Part shown: piece by piece, positions 146-22,400 of the stretch | Layout: each line of letters starts with the position of its first letter | Position numbering within the stretch: position 1 is the first letter of the stretch | Program-made: the position numbers and the translations under genes | From: an uncultured Bacteroidota bacterium | Lineage (GTDB): Bacteria > Bacteroidota > Bacteroidia > Chitinophagales > Chitinophagaceae | Length of the DNA stretch: 34,781 nucleotides | Assembly: GCA_903881585.1 (NCBI GenBank) | Contig: CAIRTW010000012.1 | Location: 1-34,781 of the forward strand | Reading direction: 5' to 3' | Notes under the pieces: model-generated | Database searches by the model: none | What the model was told of the DNA's origin: nothing | The model's input: only the letters and a program-made list of their open reading frames with translations

Positions 146-1219
146 TTATCTGAAATTGTAATTGTTGAGGTCTTCAAAACGTGGGCACATAACGCCATCG
201 CGTGGGTTCTTCTTGTGGTTGTAGTTGCCCCTGATGTACAGCGATATTTCTGTAGCATTGGCTGTGGAAACCGCAGTGCTGGTGATCAGCGATGAAGTAA
301 CAACATCGTAAGAAATGCCGATAGCCACATCCTTGTAGTCGATCTTTATGGTTGGTACAATAGCATCCTGGTAGCGATAGAAACAACCGAACGAGAAAGC
401 AAATATGCTGGGAAGGCCCACCGGCATACTGCGCCAGGTGAACATACCGCCCATTATTGTTTCGCTGTAAGGCTGCATCAGGCTGTAGTTTGCGTGAACT
501 GTCAGTCCGAACTGCTGGCTGAAGGACGTGTGAAATCCTGCGCTGAATTCCCACTTGATTGGCAGCTTCACCAGGTTGTCGCCACCGCCGTTGAAGTTTT
601 CAGTGGCAGCGTTGAGATGGTAGGCGCCTGCGCCAAGGTAGTAGTTGAAAATGCCGCTGTTGTCCAGTGAGCTGTTCAGGCTCACGCCAGCGCCTACATC
701 GTAGGTATTTATGCTCTTGAACGGCAGCAGCTGACCAGTTGGGTTGCCGGGGAGATAAGATCCGTCTATCCACTGGGAACTTGTGGTCATCTTGCTCTGG
801 TCTATAGAGCGGTTAAGATAGCCGCCGGTAAGGCCGACAGATAAATAAGAATTGTGCTGATCTTCCAGCGCCTTGTTGTAGCTCACAGCAGGATAAACCT
901 GTATGCTGGTAAAATCGATGCTCCCCGCTTTGTCGTAAGTGGTTACCAGGCCGAAACTGATATAGTCACCTATCTCCCGGTTTACGAGAACGCGTGTCTC
1001 GCCCGAGATCATGGTAGTACTATATGGTGTTGAAACGGAGCTCCACTGGCTGCGGTAATCAATGCCAACTTTGTAGTCACCACTGAAAATGCCTGTGAGT
1101 GCCGGATTGCGCAGTATCGCATTTTCGTAGAACTGCGAAAAATGGATATCCTGTGCATGGCTGCTAGCGCCCATGCCAAGCAATGCACTTACTGATAAAC
1201 CGATTAAAAAACGCTTCAT
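146..1219 (-). CDS. PorP/SprF family type IX secretion outer-membrane protein
   Basis: The product is 357 residues long, normal for the PorP/SprF family (TIGR03519 type). It starts with a signal peptide (MKRFLIGLSVSALLGMGASS, cleavage probably after HAQ near residue 23). The mature N-terminus reads HFSQFYENAILRNPALTG, the family hallmark, followed by alternating strands expected of an outer-membrane beta-barrel. The family's CPRF motif is at residues 345-348, followed by an extra tail of about nine residues. In Flavobacterium johnsoniae, SprF is needed for secretion or surface attachment of the type B (CHU_C-tailed) adhesin SprB encoded just upstream. The same order occurs here: the gene begins 30 nt after the stop of a CHU_C-tailed giant protein, so the two are almost certainly co-transcribed and PorP/SprF is the likely dedicated partner. 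The ATG at 1219 follows an A-rich leader without a Shine-Dalgarno, as is common in Bacteroidota. The family assignment is secure; the partner specificity is inferred. Confidence 0.93.
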   Translation of the reverse strand: MKRFLIGLSVSALLGMGASSHAQDIHFSQFYENAILRNPALTGIFSGDYKVGIDYRSQWSSVSTPYSTTMISGETRVLVNREIGDYISFGLVTTYDKAGSIDFTSIQVYPAVSYNKALEDQHNSYLSVGLTGGYLNRSIDQSKMTTSSQWIDGSYLPGNPTGQLLPFKSINTYDVGAGVSLNSSLDNSGIFNYYLGAGAYHLNAATENFNGGGDNLVKLPIKWEFSAGFHTSFSQQFGLTVHANYSLMQPYSETIMGGMFTWRSMPVGLPSIFAFSFGCFYRYQDAIVPTIKIDYKDVAIGISYDVVTSSLITSTAVSTANATEISLYIRGNYNHKKNPRDGVMCPRFEDLNNYNFR

Positions 1220-1249: not shown

Positions 1250-4200
1250 TTATCGTACTATAGAAACATCTCCCTTGAAACTAAATGGCTGCTGTCCTAT
1301 TTCACAGATCACCTCGGCTACATACATGAACACGTCAGGCGACAGCACCATTCCTTTATAAGTACCGTCCCATCCCGCACCCGGATCATTTGGCTGCGAA
1401 TTGAGCGACTGGAACACCAGTTCACCCCAACGGTTGTAAACGCTAAGCCTTACAATAGAGCTAACTCCATGTGCGTTAATGAAGAAACGGTCATTTACAC
1501 CATCTCCATCAGGAGTGAAGGTGTTTGGAATAAATACCTGGCTGCCATCGCAGAACAGGCTTATGGTAATATCTGCGCTCGAAGAACAGCCATAGTTGGA
1601 TGTTGCGGTAAATGTATAAGTAGTCGTTACAGTTGGCGTAGCAATAGGCGCAAAACACCTGTCGCAGGATAGGCCATCGGCTGGTGTCCAGATGTAGTCA
1701 CTAACCAGCACCTCATTGGCTATAGATGCGGTTAACTGTACCTGAGTACCTGCGGATACATTGGTGCCACTTGCGGTAATTATTATTGTAGGCTGTGGTT
1801 CCACGTACACCGTTACATTCTCTACCCTTGTGAAGCAGAAGTTTTCCTTTATCGTCACACTGTATTGTGTGGTGGTATCAGGAGTAGCTATCGGGGTCGG
1901 GCTGTTAGGATCACTTAATTTGGTAGTAGGCGTCCATGAGTAAAACTCAGGGTGCGAACCGTCGCCGGCAGTGCTGGTAGCTATCAGCTGCACGCTCTGG
2001 CCAAGACATATAATGGTATCGTTGCTGATAGTGATCTGGGTGGTGTCAAGCACTGACACAGGTACCAGGATCGAATCGCGGCAACCAAATGAAGTGGTGC
2101 CTATCACATTATAAACCAGGTTTTGTGTATCAGATGCTATAACTATTGCACAGGTATCACAATTCAGGAACGCATTCGGGAACCAGGTATAAGTAGCGGC
2201 TCCGGATGCTGTAAGCTGTGTTGTTGACCCCTGGCAAACGATAGCAGGATTTGGATTTACCGAGAGAATTGGCAGCGGGTTTACTGATACAGTGAAAGAT
2301 GCTGAATACTTACAATTCGCTGTATCTATCGCAACTGCTGTATAAGTAGTGGTATTTACGATGCGTGCTATTGTAGTATCACATATCGTACAGCTGAGGC
2401 CTGTTGTTACAGGCGTCCAGTTAAAGAGGCTGCCGGTATAACCCGAAGCTATCAGCGTGTCTGCATCGCCGGCACATATACTGTGTCTGCCGGTAATTTC
2501 GATGTGGAGCAACATGCTGTCAACGTGAACCGTAACGGTAGTATCGCTGCTGCAGCCATATTGCGTGGTACCTATCACCGTATAGGTTGTAGTGACTGTA
2601 GGTGATGCGACCACCGGGTTGCCAGCAGTGGAAGACAGTGCGGTTGGTGGCGCCCATACGTAAGTGCCAGCACTGCCTCCGGGCGTTGATGCACCCGATG
2701 CGGTAAGGATCACTGATCCGCCAATACATATCTGTGCATTTGGCAAAGCCACCACAGTAATAACCGGTATCGGGTCTACCGTGAACAATGTATAGACATT
2801 ACAGCCGGTGACAGGGTACGTATAGAATATAGTATCTGTGCCGGGAGAGAAACCGGTAACCAGGCCGGTATCGTTCACTGTATCAATAACAATATTGCTG
2901 CTGCTCCATATACCGCCGGCCGAAGTATCGTTCAGCGCTACAGAGAAACCGTTACAAACCCTGTCAATTCCGTAGATCGGCGTTGGTATCGGATTTACAG
3001 TAACCGGCTTGGTTGCCGTACATCCGTGATTGCTGGTGTAGGTTACCAGTACCGTTCCCGAGTGGACGCCCACAAGGATGCCGGTGACTGAGTTGATATT
3101 TGCTGTATCCACCAGGTTAACACTCCAGGTGCCACCAACACTAGAATCGCTAAGCGTGATAAAGCTGTTGACACACACCACCGATGGGCCGGTAATGGCC
3201 GGAGGGAGCGGGAAAACAGTAACACTGTCTGTTATGAAACAACCGGTAGGCATTGTATAGGTGATCACAGTACCTCCTGCGGACTCACCGATGATCCATG
3301 CCGTACTGTCGCTTAATCCGTATGGGCTGATAGAACCAATGCCGGGATTAAGGCTTGTCCATGAACCGCCATGGTTTGCATCAGACAGCATTACCGAATC
3401 ATGCAGGCATACCGTGTTTCGCCCGGTAATAATATCTGGTATCGGGTTAACAGTTACTACCGTAGTAGCGATACAGCCGGTGTTTGTAAGTGTGTAGGTA
3501 ATAGTAGATGTGCCTGAATGCAAGCCGGTCACAAAGCCGGTTGTGTCTATTACGCTTGCAGTGTCTATCAGGCTGCTCGTCCAGGTACCGCCGGGGGTAA
3601 TGTCACTCAATGTGATCGAGTAACCAACGCAGATCGGAGTGTTGCCGGTGATAGGTGCAGGTAATGGATTAACCGTGATCACCTGTGTGATGATACAGCC
3701 GGTAGGCAGAGTGTAGGTAATGGTAGCCGTACCAAGTACATTACCGCAAACAACGCCTGTTGCAGAGCCTATAGGCGCTACAACAACATTGCTGCTGCTC
3801 CAGGTACCACCGGGGTTTGCATCAGCCAGGGTATTACATGTGCCGAAGCAAACGCTGAAGTTGCCAGTAATAGGCAGTGGTGTCGGGTTAACCGTAAATG
3901 TAGTGGTAACAAAACAACCGGTGCTGAACAGGCTGTAGGTATCGGTAACAACACCTGCGCTAACACCGAGTGCAAGGCCTGTACCTAAACCGATGGTTTC
4001 AATTGCCGTATTGCTGCTTGTCCATGTACCGCCCGGGGTGGCATCCGTCAATTGGGTAGTAAGCCCAACGCAAACGCTGTCTGCTCCAAGGATCGGAGTT
4101 GGTAAAGGATCAACAGTTACTGCAACGGTAACGAGACAGCCGGTGGTGGTTAAGTCGTAAGTAATAATTGTCGTACCCAGCGTGAGGCCCGACACACAAC

Positions 4201-7200
4201 CTGCTGCGCTGATGCTGCCAACAGCTGGGTTGCTGCTCGCCCATGTGCCACCCGGTGTGCCGTCGGTATAACATACCGTAGTGCCTATACAAACATTAGG
4301 ATTGCCGCTGATCGGGTTAGGTAATGGATTAACCGTTACTATCGCAGTAATGATACACCCGGTGCCCAACGTATAGGTAACAGTTGCAGTTCCTCCGGCA
4401 ACACCGGTAACCACGCCAAACGGATCAACAGTAGCAATTGTTGTTGGACTGATGCTCCAGGTTCCGCCCGGTGTTATATCGCTGAGATCAGTTGTTGACC
4501 CCTGGCATACAACCAGGTTGCCTGTTATTGAGGCTGGTAATGGATTCACCGTGACCACTACTGTAGTGATACAGCTTGTGGGCAGTGTATAAGTAATAGT
4601 TGCAGTGCTCGAGGTTGTACTACCTGAGAGAACCCCGGTAACTACCCCTGCTGCACTTACCGTAGCAACAGCAGTATTGCTGCTGCTCCAGGTGCCAAGC
4701 GGTGTAAGGTCGGTCAGGGTTATAGTGAGGCCTTGGCATACAACCGGTGTGCCAAGTATTGCAGATGGCAATGGGTTCACAGTAACCACAACGGTAGCGA
4801 TACAGCCCAGTGGTGAGGTAGCTGTGATAGTAGTGGTGCCGGCTGCGTTGCCGGTAACTACGCCCGTAGCTGAGTTAATACTGGCAACCGATGGTGTGCT
4901 GCTGGTCCAGGTTACACCGGCAGTAGCGTCAGTGAGTGCGGTGGTCAAGCCCACACAAACTGAATCAGCGCCCTGTATTGCATTGGTAACATTAACAGTT
5001 ACAATAGCAGTTATAATGCAGCCGCTGGGCAGTGTGTTGATCACGGTCGCGGTACCAGCGTCTATACCGGTCACCGTACCACTTGGATTGATCACCGCAA
5101 TAGTGGTAGGAGTAATGCTCCAGGTACCACCAAGGGTTGAATCGCTCAGGTGTGTGGTAAGGCCAAGGCAAACGTTGAGGTTGCCAAGGATCGGTGTAGC
5201 AGGGTTAACGATCACGGTATGTATAGCTACACAGCCGGGGCCGTAAGAATAGCTGATGATAGCTGTGCCTGAATGATGGCCGATAACCTCGCCTGTAGTG
5301 GACACTGTAGCAGTAGAATCAAAGCTGCTCGTCCATGTACCACCCGGAGTTGCATCAGTAAGGGCAATTGAATCGCCCTGGCAAACGCTTGATGGGCCGG
5401 TGATAGGGGAGAGTGCAGCAACCGTTACAATAATGGTAGCGGTACAACCTGAAGATAAAGTGTAAGATATTATTGCTGTGCCTGGAGCCACGCCGGTTAC
5501 AATACCAGTTATAGAGTTAACTGTCGCAACACCGGTATTGCTGCTGTTCCAGATGCCGCCAAGAAGCGAATCTGTAAATACAGTGCTGGTGCCTACGCAA
5601 AGCTCAGTGGTGCCGTGAATAGCTGCAAGTGAGTTTACAGTAACTATAAGCGTAGTGGTACAGCCGGTAGGCAATACGTAAGATATAGTGGATGTACCCA
5701 CAGTGTTGGCGGTAACATTGCCAAACGCGTCAACAGTTACATTAGTATTGCTGCTGCTCCAAACGCCGCCGGTAACCAGATCGCTAACAGTAGTCACCTG
5801 GCTCTGGCAAAGGTTGGTAGCGCCCGTTATTGGAGCTAATGGGTTAACAGTTACAACGGCAGTGATGGTACAACCTGTACCTAGCGTATAAGTGATGATC
5901 GAAGTGCCGGCGATATTACCAGTGATTATACCCGAAGAAGAGCCAATGGTTATGTTACCGTTGTTGCTGGTCCAGGTACCGCCCGCAGTACCGTCAGACA
6001 CTGATGTGGTTTGGCCAACACATACAGAGAGCGTGCCGCTGATATTAGTTGGTAAAGCGTAAACGGTTACGATAATGGTAGAAGTACAGCCTGAAGGCAT
6101 AACGTAAGAAATGGTAGCCGTACCCTGAGTAACACCGGTCACAACACCTGTTGTTGAACCGACGGTTGCAACACCCGTGGCATTGCTGCTCCATGTGCCG
6201 CCTGGCGTAGCATCGGTAAGATTAGTTGTAAGGCCTACGCAAAGAGAAGGTGTACCTGTAATTGGTGACAGTGGGTTAACTGTGATTATCGTTGTTGTGA
6301 TACAGCCGGTCGAAAGTGTATAAGTAATAATAGTAGTGCCCGCTGCTAAGCCGGTTACACAACCTGTGCCTGAGTTAACAATTGCAACTGCACTGCTGCT
6401 GCTCCATGTGCCACCTGCCGTAGCATCGGTAAGGCATATGGTCTGGCCTACGCAAACGCTGCCCGCACCTAGAATTGCAGTTGGGTTTGGATTCACCGTA
6501 ACCACCACTGTATTGAGACAGCCGGTGAGCAATGTATAAGTGATAGTAGCTGTGCCGCCGGCAACGCCTACGCCGGTAACTACGCCAGAGGAAGAACCAA
6601 CTGTAGCAACAGCAGTGTTGCTGCTGGTCCATACACCGCCGCCGGTAGCATCAGTGAGGGTCGTGGTAAGGCCCACACAAACGGTAAGTGTTCCATTTAT
6701 TGGTAGCGGGTTTGGATTGATGGTTATGATAGTATCAACATAACAACCGCTTGCCAGTGTATAAGTTACCATTGTAGTGCCGGGAGCAATACCGGTAACA
6801 ATACCTGATATAGAGCCAACGGTAGCGATAGAACCATTACCGGTGCTCCATGTGCCGCCGTTTGTGAGGTCGCTGAGTGTGGTAGAGAGCCCCTGGCAAA
6901 TAACGAGGTTGCCGTTGATCGCTGTAGGCAATGGATTGATGGTAATGGTATAATAAACCGCGCAGCCTGTTGGCAGTGTATAAGTCACTGTGCCTGTGCC
7001 AGGAACCTCTCCGGTGATGACCCCGGTAACTGATATTACAGGGTTAAAGCTGCTCCAGGTACCGCCTGCCGTAGCCTCGCTGAGCTGTGCAGTGCCGCCA
7101 TAAGCGCACACCTGGTTAGGACCGGTGATAGGCGATGGTAGCGGATTAACAGTAACGGTTATCACGGCTACGCAGCCCGTAGGAAGGGTATAAGTAATGT

Positions 7201-10200
7201 TTGAAGTACCAACGGTTCCTGCAGATGTGACGTTTCCAAGAGGGTCAACTGTAGCTACAGCAAGGTTGCTGCTGCTCCATGTGCCGCCAGCGACAGCATC
7301 AGTTAACGTAGTAGTGCCGCCGAGGCAAATGCTTGGATTTCCGGTAAGTGGTAAAACCGTATTTACAGTAACGATGGCTGTTGCGCTGCAGCCGGTAGGT
7401 ACAGTATAAGTAATAACTGCTGTGCCAGATGCAACACCGCAAACCAGTCCTGTGGTGGAACCTATGGTAGCGATCGTCGTATTGCTGCTGCTCCACACAC
7501 CGCCTATAGTAGTGTCGCTAAGAGAAGTGCACAAACCGGGGCATAAAGAAAGTGTTCCCAAAACAGGTGACATTGGGTTTACAATAACTGAGTAGATAAC
7601 CCAGCAGCTGGCGCCGTAGGTGTAGGTGATAATAACAGCGCCGGCAGAAACGCCCGTAACAATACCGGTCAAAGGATCAATAGAGCCAACAGCAGGATTG
7701 CTGCTGCTCCATACTCCGCCTGCAGTGCTCTCGTTCAGTGTGATCTGGGAACCCATGCAAACGCTGGTGGGGCCGGTAATGGCCGACAATGAATTAACAG
7801 TAATAGTTGTAGTTGCCACACATCCGCTCGGAGTGGTATTCGTGATCGTAACCACACCAGTGCCCGGTCCGCCCGTTACAATGCCGGTAAGTGAACCAAC
7901 GGAAGCAATGCCTGTATTGCTGCTTGTCCAGATACCACCTACCGTTGCGTCATTTAATGTCAGCGTATTACCTACGCACAATATTGTGTTGCCACCTGTT
8001 ATCGGAGACAGTGGATTAACAGTAACTACCACCGTAGCCTCGCAGCCGGTAGGTAATGAATAATAAATAGTAGTGGTATCAACAGACACGCCGGTTACAT
8101 TTCCTGAGCCATCAACTGTTGCAACACCTGTGTTGATGCTGCCCCATGTACCACCCGCAGTAGCATCTGTGAGGCTGGTTGTCTGTCCGAGACAAACGTT
8201 CGGGTTGCCGATGATCCGCGAGAAAGGATAAACAGTAACGATCGTGGTTACAATACAGCTGCTGCCTATCTGGTAAGTGATCACTGCGGTGCCGCCAGTA
8301 ATGCCGGTAACAATGCCGGTAGCGCCCACCTGCGCCACTGTTGGGGTGCTGCTACTCCAGTTACCGCCTACGGTAGCATCGGTCAGATTTGTAGTTAGGC
8401 CGGCGCAAACGCCCGTTATACCTGTAATAGGCAATGGCGACGGGTTTACGGTAACAATAACATTAGCAGAACAGCCTGTGGGCAGGGTATATACTATAGT
8501 AGTAGTACCACCGGCAGGGCCGGTTCCGGTAACAACGCCGGAGATCGCATCAACAGAAGCGATACCGGGGTTTACGCTCGACCATGTACCGCCTGCAGCC
8601 GCATCGCTGAGAGTAATGCTCTGGCCTACGCAGAACTCCACATTGCCTGTGATAGCAAATAATGAGTTAACAGTAACAACCAATGTTGCTGCGCAACCGG
8701 TATTTATTGTATAAGATATGGTCGTTGTGCCGGCAGTGATACCGGTAACATCGCCGGTAACATCTACTGTTCCTACAGCAGGAAAAGTACTGCTCCATAT
8801 ACCGCCACCTGTAATGTCGTTCAGACTGATGGTGTTGCCCATGCAAACTGTGTTTGGCCCTGTAATAGCTGCTGGCAGCGGGTTAACAGTAACCACCACG
8901 GTAGTAAAGCAGCCCGAAGGAATAGTATAAGTTATTGTCGATGTGCCGTTGCTTACACCTGTGACGTTGCCCGAAGCATCAACTGTGGCAACAGCGCCTG
9001 TGCTGCTGCTCCACGAGCCACCCGATGTGACGTCGGTAAGAGAGGTAATCGATCCCTGGCAAACAACAAGGGTGCCGGTTATTGTATTAGGTACCGGGAA
9101 GACAGTTACTAATGTATCAGCGGTACAGCCTGTGGGTAGTGTATAGATGATCTCTGTAGAGCCGGTTGCTATACCGGTAACAACGCCTGTGCTTGAGCCT
9201 ACGGTGCCTACCGCAGCGGTAACACTGCTCCAGGTACCGCCCGGCGATACATCGCTAAGTGCTGTTGTAAAGCCAACACAAACAGTATTGTTGCCCGTGA
9301 TAGGCGCTGGCAGCGGGTTAACCGTTACGTTGCTGATGGTCATACAACCCGTAGGGAGTGTATAAGTTACAGTTCCAAGGCCGGTAGCGTAGCCCGTCGC
9401 GCAGCCGCTAGGTGCTATCACAACCAGTGTACTGCTCCATACACCGCCTGCAGTTGCATCAGTAAGGCAGGTGACGCCGCCATCTTCGCATACACTCAGC
9501 GTGCCGGAAATTGTCGCCGGAAGCGGGTTTACAGTAACTACAACAGTTGCCGCGCAGCCCGAAGGAAGAGAATAGGAAATAATGGTAGTGCCTGCAGAGA
9601 GCCCGGTTACATTACCGAACGGATCAATAGAAGCTATACCTGGGTTGGAACTGCTCCATCCGCCACCGGGTGTAGCATCTGTCAGGGTAATGCCTAAGCC
9701 AACGCATACTGAAGTAGGGCCGGTGATCGGTGCTACTGGGTTCACTGCTATGACAGTAGTGGCCGTGCAGCCGGTAGGTAATGTATAAGTAATAGTAGTA
9801 GTGCCGTTAGATATGCCGGTAACAACACCGGTAGATGGATCAATGATAGCTACTGTAGGTGTGCTGCTGGTCCATGTGCCACCGGTGGGCAGGTCATTAA
9901 GCGTGATCGTAGCGCCAACACAAACACTCGTTGGGCCGCCGATAGCTGAAGGTAATGGATCTACTGTAAGAGAGGCAGTGGCAACGCAGCCAAAAGGAAG
10001 CGTGTAAATAATATTAAAGTTGCCAAGAGTAAGGCCGGTAACAACACCGGTAACCGGATCAACAGAGCCGATAGCCGGGTTGCTGCTGCTCCATACACCA
10101 CCGGTTGCAGCGTCGGTTAAGGTAGTTGTGCCGCCAAGGCAAACGTTGAAGTTACCATTGATAGGCCCGTAAGGATTTACAGTAACAACGACTGTTGCTA

Positions 10201-11506
10201 TGCAGCCGGTAGGTAATGTGTATGTGATCGTTGCAGTACCACCAAGTGCGCCGGAGACATTTCCGGCACCGGCTGTAACCGGAGCAATAGATGGATTGCT
10301 GCTGGTCCAGGTGCCGCCTGGTGTTGCATCTGTAAGTATGGTAGTAGAGCCCTGGCATAAAGTGTCTGTACCTAAAATAGGCGTTGGCAGCGGGTTAACA
10401 GTAAGATTAGTAGTTATAAGACAACCTGTCGGCAGTGTGTACGTGATGGTTGCATTGCCTACGCTCGAACCCGTCACGCAGCCGGTAGCACTCACTGAGG
10501 CTACAGCGCTGTTGCTGCTGCTCCATGTGCCGCCTGCATCGGTATCCGTTAAGCAATTGATGAGGCCGATACAAATGTTTGTATTGCCCGTAATGCCTGC
10601 TGGCAGCGGATTTACAGTGATGACCGTAGTGGTGTTGCAGCTAAGCGGAGAGGTGGCAGTAATGATAGTAGTGCCGCCAGAAATACCTGTAACAAGGCCG
10701 GTTGAAGGATCTATTGTTGCAACCCCTGTGTTGCTGCTTGTCCAGGTAATACCTGCCGTAGCATCAGTTAAAGTAATAGTGCTTCCCTGGCAAACAACCG
10801 AAGGGCCATTGATATTAGCGGTGGTATTAACGGTAACAACGGAAATAGATGAGCAGCCTGCGAGTGTATAGATTATAGTAGCAGTACCTCCCGAAATACC
10901 TGTAACACAACCTGTAGCCGCTACAGTAGCAACGGTAGCATCATCGCTGTTCCATGTGCCGCCTGAAGAAGCATCTGTTAAACATTGAATCGTGCCTACG
11001 CAAATGTTCGTCACGCCTGTAATAGCCGCTGGTCTTGGGTTTACGGTAATGCCGATAACATTGGACGTAGCTGTAGTTGTGCCAACGGTACAGTCACCTA
11101 CAATGCCTGTAAGCACCACCTGGTAGTAGCTATTTGCAAACAAACCTGGAGTTGTGTATGTAGCAGACACGGGGCCAGCCGACGATATAGTGCCTGGCGC
11201 ACCCACGTTCGACCAGCCGCCAACACCTGTTGCAGACGACTGCCACTGGTAGTTTGCGCTCCACGAGGCCACAGCTGTGCCACCCGGGATGTCCGTGAGG
11301 GTGAATCGCACCGAATCTCCCGAGCAAATAGACGTTGCCGAAGCGGTAAGATTAGCCCCGTTCACACACAGTTGTGCAAATGTTTCTCTGCTGGAAAACA
11401 AAGACGCGAGAAAAAAGATTCCTGCCAGAACTTTCATTTTGGAGGAACTGTTTTTGACAGAATAGGATCTTAAATTCGGAAATTGAGATCGTAAAAAATT
11501 AGTCAT
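1250..11506 (-). CDS. Giant secreted Ig-like repeat protein with T9SS type B (CHU_C) sorting domain
   Basis: The product has 3418 residues. A hydrophobic signal segment (KVLAGIFFLASLFSS) ends near residue 45 at FAQ. It is preceded by 23 polar residues, so translation may instead start at Met24 (position 11437). Residues about 46-160 form an Ig/PKD-like head with a YQWQSS motif. Residues about 163-2914 are roughly 38 tandem compact Big_2-like domains (core CVG, LTD, GGTWSSSN, ATV, VTG, GTATITYTL, TGC). Residues about 2915-3317 are five PKD/Ig-like domains (C-G, YxWxP, TTTYTV, GC pattern). Residues about 3318-3418 are a canonical gliding-motility-associated C-terminal domain: IPNTFTPDGDGVNDRF, VYNRWGELVF, GWDG and a terminal KGDVSIVR. 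Such tails send proteins through the type IX system and depend on SprF-like partners; one is encoded next in the operon. A role as a surface adhesin or fibre is inferred. It is poor in charged residues and rich in T, S, G, A and V. No exact TAnnTTTG box was found in the roughly 250 nt upstream. Confidence 0.95.
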   Translation of the reverse strand: MTNFLRSQFPNLRSYSVKNSSSKMKVLAGIFFLASLFSSRETFAQLCVNGANLTASATSICSGDSVRFTLTDIPGGTAVASWSANYQWQSSATGVGGWSNVGAPGTISSAGPVSATYTTPGLFANSYYQVVLTGIVGDCTVGTTTATSNVIGITVNPRPAAITGVTNICVGTIQCLTDASSGGTWNSDDATVATVAATGCVTGISGGTATIIYTLAGCSSISVVTVNTTANINGPSVVCQGSTITLTDATAGITWTSSNTGVATIDPSTGLVTGISGGTTIITATSPLSCNTTTVITVNPLPAGITGNTNICIGLINCLTDTDAGGTWSSSNSAVASVSATGCVTGSSVGNATITYTLPTGCLITTNLTVNPLPTPILGTDTLCQGSTTILTDATPGGTWTSSNPSIAPVTAGAGNVSGALGGTATITYTLPTGCIATVVVTVNPYGPINGNFNVCLGGTTTLTDAATGGVWSSSNPAIGSVDPVTGVVTGLTLGNFNIIYTLPFGCVATASLTVDPLPSAIGGPTSVCVGATITLNDLPTGGTWTSSTPTVAIIDPSTGVVTGISNGTTTITYTLPTGCTATTVIAVNPVAPITGPTSVCVGLGITLTDATPGGGWSSSNPGIASIDPFGNVTGLSAGTTIISYSLPSGCAATVVVTVNPLPATISGTLSVCEDGGVTCLTDATAGGVWSSTLVVIAPSGCATGYATGLGTVTYTLPTGCMTISNVTVNPLPAPITGNNTVCVGFTTALSDVSPGGTWSSVTAAVGTVGSSTGVVTGIATGSTEIIYTLPTGCTADTLVTVFPVPNTITGTLVVCQGSITSLTDVTSGGSWSSSTGAVATVDASGNVTGVSNGTSTITYTIPSGCFTTVVVTVNPLPAAITGPNTVCMGNTISLNDITGGGIWSSTFPAVGTVDVTGDVTGITAGTTTISYTINTGCAATLVVTVNSLFAITGNVEFCVGQSITLSDAAAGGTWSSVNPGIASVDAISGVVTGTGPAGGTTTIVYTLPTGCSANVIVTVNPSPLPITGITGVCAGLTTNLTDATVGGNWSSSTPTVAQVGATGIVTGITGGTAVITYQIGSSCIVTTIVTVYPFSRIIGNPNVCLGQTTSLTDATAGGTWGSINTGVATVDGSGNVTGVSVDTTTIYYSLPTGCEATVVVTVNPLSPITGGNTILCVGNTLTLNDATVGGIWTSSNTGIASVGSLTGIVTGGPGTGVVTITNTTPSGCVATTTITVNSLSAITGPTSVCMGSQITLNESTAGGVWSSSNPAVGSIDPLTGIVTGVSAGAVIITYTYGASCWVIYSVIVNPMSPVLGTLSLCPGLCTSLSDTTIGGVWSSSNTTIATIGSTTGLVCGVASGTAVITYTVPTGCSATAIVTVNTVLPLTGNPSICLGGTTTLTDAVAGGTWSSSNLAVATVDPLGNVTSAGTVGTSNITYTLPTGCVAVITVTVNPLPSPITGPNQVCAYGGTAQLSEATAGGTWSSFNPVISVTGVITGEVPGTGTVTYTLPTGCAVYYTITINPLPTAINGNLVICQGLSTTLSDLTNGGTWSTGNGSIATVGSISGIVTGIAPGTTMVTYTLASGCYVDTIITINPNPLPINGTLTVCVGLTTTLTDATGGGVWTSSNTAVATVGSSSGVVTGVGVAGGTATITYTLLTGCLNTVVVTVNPNPTAILGAGSVCVGQTICLTDATAGGTWSSSSAVAIVNSGTGCVTGLAAGTTIITYTLSTGCITTTIITVNPLSPITGTPSLCVGLTTNLTDATPGGTWSSNATGVATVGSTTGVVTGVTQGTATISYVMPSGCTSTIIVTVYALPTNISGTLSVCVGQTTSVSDGTAGGTWTSNNGNITIGSSSGIITGNIAGTSIITYTLGTGCTITAVVTVNPLAPITGATNLCQSQVTTVSDLVTGGVWSSSNTNVTVDAFGNVTANTVGTSTISYVLPTGCTTTLIVTVNSLAAIHGTTELCVGTSTVFTDSLLGGIWNSSNTGVATVNSITGIVTGVAPGTAIISYTLSSGCTATIIVTVAALSPITGPSSVCQGDSIALTDATPGGTWTSSFDSTATVSTTGEVIGHHSGTAIISYSYGPGCVAIHTVIVNPATPILGNLNVCLGLTTHLSDSTLGGTWSITPTTIAVINPSGTVTGIDAGTATVINTLPSGCIITAIVTVNVTNAIQGADSVCVGLTTALTDATAGVTWTSSTPSVASINSATGVVTGNAAGTTTITATSPLGCIATVVVTVNPLPSAILGTPVVCQGLTITLTDLTPLGTWSSSNTAVATVSAAGVVTGVLSGSTTSSTATITYTLPTSCITTVVVTVNPLPASITGNLVVCQGSTTDLSDITPGGTWSISPTTIATVDPFGVVTGVAGGTATVTYTLGTGCIITAIVTVNPLPNPISGNPNVCIGTTVCYTDGTPGGTWASSNPAVGSISAAGCVSGLTLGTTIITYDLTTTGCLVTVAVTVDPLPTPILGADSVCVGLTTQLTDATPGGTWTSSNTAIETIGLGTGLALGVSAGVVTDTYSLFSTGCFVTTTFTVNPTPLPITGNFSVCFGTCNTLADANPGGTWSSSNVVVAPIGSATGVVCGNVLGTATITYTLPTGCIITQVITVNPLPAPITGNTPICVGYSITLSDITPGGTWTSSLIDTASVIDTTGFVTGLHSGTSTITYTLTNTGCIATTVVTVNPIPDIITGRNTVCLHDSVMLSDANHGGSWTSLNPGIGSISPYGLSDSTAWIIGESAGGTVITYTMPTGCFITDSVTVFPLPPAITGPSVVCVNSFITLSDSSVGGTWSVNLVDTANINSVTGILVGVHSGTVLVTYTSNHGCTATKPVTVNPIPTPIYGIDRVCNGFSVALNDTSAGGIWSSSNIVIDTVNDTGLVTGFSPGTDTIFYTYPVTGCNVYTLFTVDPIPVITVVALPNAQICIGGSVILTASGASTPGGSAGTYVWAPPTALSSTAGNPVVASPTVTTTYTVIGTTQYGCSSDTTVTVHVDSMLLHIEITGRHSICAGDADTLIASGYTGSLFNWTPVTTGLSCTICDTTIARIVNTTTYTAVAIDTANCKYSASFTVSVNPLPILSVNPNPAIVCQGSTTQLTASGAATYTWFPNAFLNCDTCAIVIASDTQNLVYNVIGTTSFGCRDSILVPVSVLDTTQITISNDTIICLGQSVQLIATSTAGDGSHPEFYSWTPTTKLSDPNSPTPIATPDTTTQYSVTIKENFCFTRVENVTVYVEPQPTIIITASGTNVSAGTQVQLTASIANEVLVSDYIWTPADGLSCDRCFAPIATPTVTTTYTFTATSNYGCSSSADITISLFCDGSQVFIPNTFTPDGDGVNDRFFINAHGVSSIVRLSVYNRWGELVFQSLNSQPNDPGAGWDGTYKGMVLSPDVFMYVAEVICEIGQQPFSFKGDVSIVR
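1553..2763 (-). repeat. Five PKD/Ig-like domains before the CHU_C tail
   Basis: Residues about 2915-3317 of the 3418-residue protein hold five domains of roughly 80 residues with a different pattern from the main array: an initial C-x-G, then L-AsG, a Y-W-P core, a TTTYTV strand and a closing GC. Three of them carry an extra C-x-x-C (SCTIC, NCDTC, SCDRC) in the loop after the W-P core, which looks like a local disulfide or metal-type clip. This type of domain commonly sits directly before CHU_C tails in Bacteroidota. The last domain lacks the first cysteine (NVSAGTQVQL). Confidence 0.75.
2764..11020 (-). repeat. Array of about 38 compact Big_2-like domains (about 72 residues each)
   Basis: Splitting the translated protein at the linker (consensus VTVNPLPxx followed by I-x-G) gives 38 units; 8257 nt divided by 38 is 217 nt, about 72 residues. 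Each unit has a first cysteine (CVG/CQG/CLG), LTDAT-GG, W-S-S, AT-V, TG-VTG, GT-TITYTL, a second cysteine (TGC or close) and a closing V-VTVNP strand. The W-S-S-N-AT-V-G-VTG-GTA-I-T order matches bacterial Ig-like domain 2 (Big_2). However, the segment before the tryptophan is about ten residues shorter than usual, and two conserved cysteines bracket the domain. All 38 keep both cysteines. Some units are longer by insertion, for example the one around 4580-4760. Confidence 0.9.
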
Positions 11507-19400: not shown

Positions 19401-22400
19401 CATGGTCTCCCGCAGCCGGTTTGTCTGCGACTACGGGTACATCGGTAACGGCATCGCCAACGGTAACAACAACATATACCTTAACTGTTACAGATGGTAA
19501 CGGGGAGACAGCAACTGCTACTACTAGAGTTTCTGTGAACCCGGTGCCTTCATCCACTGGCGCTACGAATACAAGCCCTGTATGCGCAGGCGCAACAGCA
19601 ACACTTAGTGATCACTCCAGCAATGCAACAGCATGGTCATGGACCGGCCCAGGCAGTTATAGTTCCACGGTGCAAAGCCCAGTTATAACACCAACTGTTA
19701 CCGGCGTTTATTCACTGGTGGTGAGTAGCTCAGGCAGCGGCTGTAATCCTGCAACAGTATATACTACTTCTGTTACGGTAAACCCGGCACCAACATCTAC
19801 GGGTGCTACCAACACCAGCCCTATATGTGCGGGTGGCAGCGTGGCGCTGAATGATAATTCAAGCAATGCCACAGCATGGTCGTGGACCGGCCCGGGTGGA
19901 TACACTTCTTCTGTACAATCACCCACCCTCACGCCAACAGTAACAGGAGTATATTCACTTGTAGTGAGCAGTACCGGCGCAGGTTGTAATCCCGGCACTG
20001 TTTATACAACAACAGTAACGGTTAATAGTGTACCTACTTCTACAGGAGCCACAAATAACAGCCCAATATGCGTCGGCGGAACAGTAACATTCAATGACCA
20101 TTCCAGCAATGCCTCAGCCTGGTCGTGGACCGGACCTGGTGGTTTCACTTCATCTTTGCAAACCCCGACAGCAACCCCAACTGTAACGGGTGTTTATTCT
20201 TTAGTAGTGAGCAGCACAGGAAGCGGTTGCAATCCGGCTACGGTATATACCACTTCGGTAACAGTACATGCAGTGCCAACATCAACCGGGGCAACAAATA
20301 CCAGCCCGATCTGTGTAGGTGGAACAGCAACGCTAAATGATAACTCCAGCAACACTACCGCATGGTCATGGACCGGCCCGGGCAGCTACAGTTCATCGAT
20401 TCAAAGTCCTGCAATAACACCTGTTGTCACTGGTACATACTCACTTACTATTAGTAGTACCGGCATAGGGTGTAATCCTGCTACAGTATATACTACATCT
20501 GTAACGGTACACACTGTACCAACATCAACTGGCGCAACAAACACCAGTCCGGTCTGCGTAGGGGGGACTGCCACACTAAATGATAATTCCAGTAATGCAA
20601 CAGCCTGGTCATGGACCGGCCCGGGCAGCTACACTTCGTCAATTCAAAGTCCGGTAATAACGCCAACGGTATCGGGGGTTTATTCTCTTGTTGTAAGCGC
20701 TACCGGAAGCGGCTGTAATCCTGCCACAGTATATACAACGGCAGTCACGGTAAATGCTGTGCCAACTTCAACCGGTGCTACTAATACCAGCCCCATATGT
20801 TCGGGCAGTGCAGTAACGCTGATCGATAATTCCACTCATGCTACCGCGTGGTCATGGACCGGACCTGCCGGATATAGCTCTTCGCTTCAAAGCCCGGTAA
20901 TTACACCGACAGTCACAGGGGTTTATTCATTAGTGGTAAGCAGCACAGGAAACGGCTGTAGCCCAGGTACAGTATATACCACTACAGTCACCGTAAGCAC
21001 AGGCCTTACCCCGGTAACAGGTAATCCGAATGCCTGCGTTGGAACCACCACCACATTGACAGATGCATCTGCCGGTGGTATCTGGACAAGTGTTACCACA
21101 TCTGTTGCCACAGTAGGCACGGATGGCGTGGTAGCAGGAGTATCTGCGGGTACATCATTAGTATCTTATTCTATAAGTGCATGCGTAGCCACTGTTGTTG
21201 TGACTGTTGCACCAGCACCAGCGCCAATATCAGGCGCTACCAATGTATGTGTCGGCTCCACAACAAACCTGACAGACGCCGCCGGGGCAGGTATATGGGC
21301 GTGCAGTAATACAGAGATTGCCAATGTTGGTTCATCTACGGGGATAGTTACCGGCGTATCAGGTGGCATCACTACGGTTACCTTCACTACCGGCACAGGC
21401 TGCAGCATAACTGCTACTATCCTGAGCAGCCCGGTTGCAGCGCCAATCACGGGCACAGCTGCGCTTTGTATCGGTAGGAATGCTCAGCTAAGTGACATTA
21501 CGCTGGGTGGTAACTGGACGAGCAGCAATACTTCGGTCGCAGAGGTAAGTTTATACACGGGGTTGGTAACTGGTTTATCTGCTGGTACAACAGTGATAAC
21601 CTACTCCCTCGAAACCGGCTGTATGAGGACCATGGTGGTAACAGTTGATGCAACGGCTGGCCCCATCACCGGGCCTAATGTAGTGTGCGATGGCTTCACC
21701 ACTGCTTTAACAGATGCTACAGGCGGTGGCACGTGGGCGAGCAGTGACGTAACGATCGCAACTGTTGGCTCCACTACTGGTGTCGTGGCAAGCGTAGCCG
21801 CAGGTACTGCAACTATTACTTATGCTTTATCCAGTGGTTGCATGTCTTCAAGAACGGTAACCATCGACGCACTGCCTGCGACTGTGAATGTTAGCAGCAG
21901 TGGAAATTATTGCGTAAGCACTACTATCACGGCAGACAACAGTGGGGATGGTACTATTTATTACCAGGGCACAACTTCCGGCGGTACATCAACAGCTACG
22001 CCGGAGACAGCACAGATCATCACCACCTCAGGGACTTATTATTTCAGGGCATTATCTGCTTCAGGTTGCTGGAGCCCGGATGGAAGTGCAGTTATTACCG
22101 TCAATTCACTGCCCGCTGCTATTTCGGGTGCTCCTTCAGTTTGTCTGGGATCAACTACAAATTTGACCGATGCAAATGCCGGCGGTACCTGGATCAGCAG
22201 CAATACTTCTAAAGCTACTATTGGCTCTTCTTCAGGTATTGTAACTGGCATGGCAGCCGGTACTGCTAACATTACTTATACTGCCCCTACAGGCTGCCAG
22301 GCCACAGAGGTATTCACCATTAGTCCCGTTTCTGCAATAAATGGTGCAAACAAGGTTTGCGCAGGGTCAACAACAACTCTGACTAATGCCGTGTCAGGCG

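Follow-up and report, generated by a model that had tools for sequence, protein, structure and literature searches.

Seven of the 38 Ig-like units of P0001, a giant protein encoded by an uncultured Bacteroidota bacterium, carry two extra cysteines in addition to their canonical pair, and these always come together, in one of two neighbouring registers. The best explanation, which we consider very probable, is an optional second disulfide, predicted to staple strand B to the antiparallel strand E of single units. A preliminary description of the sequence had proposed such a cross-strand disulfide; the prediction is now strongly supported, although not proved, by the pairing of these cysteines in 72 units of the genus, by the register obtained from mean-field DCA and by the modelled strands.

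The window, i.e. the whole stretch of 34,781 nucleotides that was analysed (contig CAIRTW010000012.1), contains two divergent giant genes and one PorP/SprF gene. P0001 (1250-11506, minus strand; 3418 aa) was recognised from its translation and profile matches as a giant T9SS type B protein, with an N-terminal region, 38 Big_2-type units (aa 162-2913) of about 70-78 aa each, an Ig_7/PKD-like region and a CHU_C sorting domain. The whole protein scored 324.5 bits against Big_2 (PF02368), for which the curated cut-off is 22.8. Units 1-3 together scored 79 bits and unit 17 alone 26.2; unit 34 alone, with 20.0 bits, is under the cut-off of 22.8 for that single unit and above that of the related model Ig_NUP210_16th (30.4 vs. 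27). An Ig-like beta sandwich is borne out by the AlphaFold2 strands and by the NUP210, S-layer and LigA chains that Foldseek matched. The C-terminal sorting domain was retrieved with CHU_C (47.9 bits, cut-off 27) and TIGR04131 (39.3, cut-off 35), by which P0001 is a predicted T9SS type B substrate. Directly downstream, on the same strand, a gene for a PorP/SprF family T9SS membrane protein (146-1219, minus strand) provides context for the secretion route. The second giant, P0002 (13433-34465, plus strand; 7010 aa, Por_Secre_tail), served as an internal control. It also contains a 243-base tandem repeat of 5.9 copies with 70% matches (19551-20979 of the window), a type of repeat that differs from the Big_2 units.

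The unit model comprises 73 columns, of which 8 and 59 hold the canonical cysteines. Each unit is a Big_2-type Ig-like domain in which the canonical pair, presumably disulfide-bonded, links the end of strand A (column 8) to the start of strand G (column 59). Both canonical cysteines are present in all 38 units of P0001, which together contain 90 cysteines, 76 canonical and 14 extra: 31 units have two and seven have four. Register A (columns 14+40) is found in unit 1 (10814-11023; C175/C200, codons 10982-10984 and 10907-10909), unit 3 (10379-10594; C318/C343, codons 10553-10555 and 10478-10480), unit 8 (9302-9511; C680/C702, codons 9467-9469 and 9401-9403), unit 22 (6263-6475; C1691/C1716, codons 6434-6436 and 6359-6361) and unit 32 (4094-4312; C2412/C2437, codons 4271-4273 and 4196-4198). 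Register B (columns 12+42) is found in unit 17 (7349-7564; C1326/C1356, codons 7529-7531 and 7439-7441) and unit 34 (3653-3871; C2557/C2587, codons 3836-3838 and 3746-3748), all of these units lying on the minus strand. The preliminary description had reported two extra cysteines together in these seven domains, five in one register and two in the other, and no domain with only one member. Tabulating the cysteine columns from an alignment of all repeat units bore this out, with half pairs in 0 of 38 units, and the codon positions and motifs given at that stage proved correct on codon mapping. In the control protein P0002, no second cysteine pair was detected among the 59 rows matched by the unit model, two of which have a lone extra cysteine.

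We then have a larger sample in the genus. Whole-giant stretches from 173 same-genus loci, together with the window itself, yielded 3967 unique units, 72 of which carry a second pair (23 in register A and 49 in register B), against one half pair. The main tally covers 3772 of these units, after exclusion of 46 that were not nearly full and 149 without cysteines at both canonical columns; the 195 excluded units, checked separately, contain two further register B pairs, added to the 47 of the main tally, and zero half pairs. In two units, residues 1681-1754 of L087 and 1601-1672 of L137 in frame numbering, the register B pair is kept but the canonical C59 is missing, so that C8 is left unpaired. 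Within the main tally, cysteines occupy columns 14 and 40 together in 23 units and columns 12 and 42 together in 45, while two more units were placed by the HMM at 12+38; MAFFT realignment moved both column-38 cysteines into the column shared by the other 45 register B units. Among the 3772 same-genus units, no cysteine was found at column 40 without one at 14, or at column 42 without one at 12. The sole half case is a unit of L100 that has C14 without C40, adjoining another cysteine at column 15. Fisher tests, in which the relatedness of units is ignored, gave 1.9e-102 for 12+42 and 3.6e-59 for 14+40. An odd cysteine count was observed in 126 of the 3772 units, and lone cysteines were commonest at columns 17, 26, 49, 53 and 18; lone cysteines occur in this fold, yet hardly at columns 12, 14, 40 and 42. 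At least one second pair was present in 21 of the 155 frames of an earlier set. As for taxonomic range, a first look gave 230 to 1338 unit candidates per genome in the window genome and 34 congeners, and 0-15 unit matches in each of 25 genomes from other genera of the family and order. Outside the genus, no second pair was found in 120 nearly full units (129 unique), whose loci were best matches and not a random sample.

Covariation provides evidence on the strand register that is independent of the extra cysteines. Mean-field DCA was run on 3545 units with exactly two cysteines, that is, no extra ones, and 2284 pairs were ranked; pair 12-38 was omitted from the rank test as an HMM misplacement. 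Pair 14-40 ranks 8th of 2284 (z 6.2), and 12-42, with moderate coupling only, ranks 67th (z 2.3). The antidiagonal with index sum 54, to which both belong, is the strongest of the B x E block, and the same picture was obtained with 3064 units. The dominant index sums of the strand ladders are 54 for B-E, 75 for D-E, 75 (then 77) for C-F and 114 for F-G. Rarer cysteine pairs fall on these ladders as well: 22-53 (rank 3), 27-50 (rank 36) and 28-49 (rank 37) on C-F, the last two sharing index sum 77, and 52-62 (rank 7) on F-G. Overall, the 12 distinct cysteine pairs have a mean DCA rank of 571, compared with 1186 for random pairs drawn from the same columns (P 0.00055), with DCA support absent for four of the 12 (15-49, 16-38, 17-39 and 17-49). 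One of these, 16+38, was considered as a third register, a possible further rung of the B-E ladder, and rejected; it occurs in one unit (L089:5522-19048, minus strand, aa 1004-1080), ranks 851 and is not coupled.

AlphaFold2 models were obtained for contiguous units 1-3 and 32-34 from alignments of 100 of 119 chosen three-unit relatives, all devoid of extra cysteines, from which the pairing could not be learned. The mean pLDDT was 97.7 (pTM 0.85) for units 32-34 and 97.2 (pTM 0.82) for units 1-3. In units 1, 3 and 32, the models assign local residues 12-14 to strand B and 39-42 to strand E, with cysteines at 14 and 39; in unit 34 the assignment is 12-14 for strand B and 40-43 for strand E, with cysteines at 12 and 42. 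All eight extra cysteines of these four units are placed on strands B and E. The DCA ladder i+j=54 and the modelled strand extents together indicate that the partners probably lie opposite each other on adjacent antiparallel strands. The genus tally, the covariation in units without extra cysteines and the modelled strands all support the earlier proposal that the two registers are neighbouring rungs of one antiparallel strand pair. Since the registers differ by two residues on each strand, both should share one site type, either hydrogen-bonded or non-hydrogen-bonded.

In 7 of the 38 units, a putative second disulfide would staple strand B to the neighbouring antiparallel strand E. Two adjacent rungs of the same face, 14-40 and 12-42, could hold it, as both have i+j=54. 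The staple is likely to sit on the outer face: columns 12, 14 and 42 are mostly T/S/N/A, which fits the expected outer face, and columns 15 and 41 are hydrophobic, whereas column 40 is mostly V/I/L, which makes this reading weak at that column. By comparison with cross-linked giant adhesins, the staple may optionally reinforce individual domains of a rod sorted to the cell surface, through greater stability or resistance to proteases or pulling.

Register use correlates with how long the D-E turn is. The residue at column 37, which lies in this turn ahead of the conserved glycine opening strand E, is absent from 16 of 23 register A units and 6 of 47 register B units (being present in the other 41), compared with 1172 of the 3702 remaining units (32%). 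Fisher tests against the remaining units, with related units counted separately, gave 3.7e-4 for register A and 4.1e-3 for register B. One-residue length variants of the D-E turn are reported for intimin, which has DASG in EHEC and DASSG in EPEC (PMC3002965). By its place before a conserved G, this variant would fit column 37, a match of position and not of a residue alignment.

Other cysteine patterns were observed in the same set of units. Of the 3772 units, 47 have a lone cysteine at column 17 (LSC replacing LTD) with no partner within the unit, in some cases two units in a row; many loci of the most complete congener, G001, show it (e.g. L272, L271, L267, L265 and L264), as does L093:2618-15202. 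In one giant, L183:2816-12655 (plus strand), several units carry a lone cysteine at column 26 (WSCSN), and some of these units are consecutive. The 28+49 pair of the C-F ladder is the only extra pair in nine units and accompanies further cysteines in two (L031, L084, L092, L267, L271 and L272). In ten units (L031, L084, L089, L092 and L124), a cysteine at column 45 or 46, or in an insertion there, after strand E, is paired with one at column 69, close to where strand G ends; DCA support for this pair is weak (ranks 111 and 239).

Pairs seen in seven units of a single protein would be thin evidence alone; the comparison of orthologous sequences makes it strong. We aligned, unit by unit, the 38-unit orthologues of four congeners (L080, L081, L082 and L083), which are 62-82% identical. 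Across the five proteins, 27 of 190 units bear the pair, and no half state was found in the 190. Units 1, 3 and 17 have the pair in all five orthologues, P0001 included, and the partial sixth orthologue L144 has it in its first and third units and in none of the next eleven. Presence varies between species at units 8, 22, 23, 26, 30, 32, 33 and 34, always as both cysteines or neither. Among the four full orthologues, the pair of unit 8 is shared by L080 only, that of unit 32 by L080 and L082 (not L081 or L083) and that of unit 34 by L083 (not L080, L081 or L082), and the pair of unit 22 is absent from all four. A hand count on a FastTree tree gave at least nine joint presence/absence changes, one each for units 8, 22, 23, 26, 30, 32 and 33 and two for unit 34. 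We infer that the two cysteines are gained and lost as a unit because a lone cysteine is disfavoured at these positions. Left exposed on an exported protein, a single thiol could plausibly be harmful, and this would account for the joint coming and going of the pairs.

How the bond would be formed is less straightforward. No DsbB was detected on searching 34 genomes, among them the window genome G000 and its congeners G001-G021; some of the 34 are incomplete. VKOR was detected in one of the 34 (G015), which is one of the 22 genomes of the genus and indicates that the VKOR search can work there. The window genome has two matches to the DSBA family, with no obvious signal peptide as judged by eye, and 15 to Thioredoxin_2, a family too general to tell. 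The missing DsbB and the rare VKOR are indirect evidence against taking oxidation for granted. Despite both, nearly all repeats examined in the giants of G000-G021 have a cysteine pair. A broader reading, which we offer tentatively and think somewhat doubtful as a whole, is that of a natural disulfide scan: pairs at facing positions would arise and vanish repeatedly, crossing a fitness valley in apparently one step, with oxidation by an unrecognised enzyme or outside the cell, and the cysteine positions would report strand contacts well enough to rebuild the ladders of the fold.

A cross-strand disulfide that does form might serve as a redox switch rather than a staple, being a strained bond that is easily reduced. 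Such bonds have been described as metastable, and thioredoxin-like enzymes are reported to act on them (PMC4354306). The pairs of these giants are scattered and partly lineage-specific, unlike a conserved switch, yet those of units 1, 3 and 17 are conserved in five orthologues. Moreover, P0001 carries a T9SS sorting domain and we know of no extracellular reductant in this setting, so that a switch appears rather unlikely.

Tandem repeats recombine, and a short tract copied between units, by duplication or gene conversion, could carry both cysteines with no need for selection on the bond. The two codons are only 66-90 bases apart, and in several comparisons of greater distance the inner tract of changed units falls below the flanks in identity, as for L081 vs. 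L082 (0.565 vs. 0.679, n=2) and for the window vs. L082 (0.630 vs. 0.698, n=4). In unit 30 of L083, the best tracts of its own giant (0.731 each) are those of register A units 1 and 3. However, between the window and L080, the closest pair, inner and outer identities are equal in changed units (0.745/0.746, n=4) and alike in unchanged ones (0.746/0.760, n=34). In unit 34, the window has codons TGT/TGC where L080 has ACA/TCC, and at the DNA level the inner tract shares 0.864 identity with this pair-less orthologue (flanks 0.792) and at most 0.679 with other units of its own giant. Similarly, for unit 33 of L080, identity with the pair-less orthologue is 0.765, compared with 0.667 at most within its own giant. 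Gene conversion is contradicted for these two units by codon-level change without tract replacement. The overall best tracts for units 22, 23, 26 and 30 are in pair-less units (0.73-0.78), the tract comparison found no clear donor tract for the remaining gained pairs, and the two registers require at least two origins. Copying is rejected for the clearest cases, units 33 and 34; it may apply to some gains, such as unit 30 of L083, and as an account of the pairs in general it is quite improbable.

Bonding of the extra cysteines between different units or different molecules is very unlikely. The units with an odd cysteine count mean that some cysteines may bond between units, but those at columns 12, 14, 40 and 42 come two per unit on one antiparallel ladder. 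Adjacent-unit bonds through the odd cysteines showed no clear excess of adjacency either: in an earlier set of 3230 units, 82 of them odd, odd units adjoined each other 6 times where shuffling gave 4.5 on average, and a count of 6 was reached in 130 of 500 shuffles. Chance or an alignment artefact, which could draw on the seven units in the one protein first examined, is refuted and of negligible probability, given that 14 cysteines falling independently in 38 units would form seven exact doubles with a chance of 6.6e-7 (exact formula, columns ignored; 0 of 200000 simulated placements), that orthologues and genus tally agree, and that both column-38 exceptions vanish on realignment.

The optional B-E staple can be set beside several known systems. 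Cross-strand disulfides (CSDs) are an established class, and the predicted partners of P0001 resemble them in facing each other on adjacent antiparallel strands. A study of CSDs searched for proteins that have the bond, lack it or possess one of the cysteines only, and refers to a primordial cysteine (PMC4354306); in contrast to the CSDs described there, we observe one half state against 72 pairs, and two registers within one protein. With Big_2 (PF02368), P0001 shares the profile match of the whole protein, the Ig-like strand order and length variants of the D-E turn; among the sequence relatives of the unit profile that have solved structures are intimin and LigA/LigB domains. P0001 differs from these relatives in that each unit has the A-G cysteine pair and a subset also the B-E pair. 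The giant adhesin of Mobiluncus mulieris (7651 aa) has 51 Ig-like domains with isopeptide and ester bonds, and in one domain two neighbouring strands of a sheet, 2 and 5, are connected by a disulfide, according to the accessible text of its report (PMC10619420). It thereby resembles P0001 in being a very long series of Ig-like domains that are cross-linked within the molecule, by prediction in the case of P0001, whereas alternative registers are not mentioned in that part of the report (PMC10619420). Six fragments of GhpA of Aureispira are among the best 50 Foldseek matches in the PDB (18-21% identity, E 2e-8 to 3e-7). This is a resemblance of fold only, with TM-scores by query length of 0.34-0.40, and GhpA gave no match at E 0.001 in a sequence search of P0001 against the PDB. 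No report of cross-strand disulfides in alternative registers, or of these giants, was found in the open-licence literature. Cross-strand disulfides as such are known; what looks new is that they occur in alternative registers and that both cysteines are gained and lost in concert.

The evolution of disulfides via a tolerated single cysteine has usually been studied in a small number of proteins. With thousands of homologous domains from a single genus, of which 72 of 3967 have a second pair and one has a half pair, the single-cysteine route becomes directly testable, and the lone cysteines at other columns (units of odd count, 126 of 3772) offer an internal control for this question. The two registers indicate that one fold accepts the same putative staple on adjacent rungs. 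If the extra cysteines bond, the repeats of these giants would be a natural experiment on how disulfide bonds arise.
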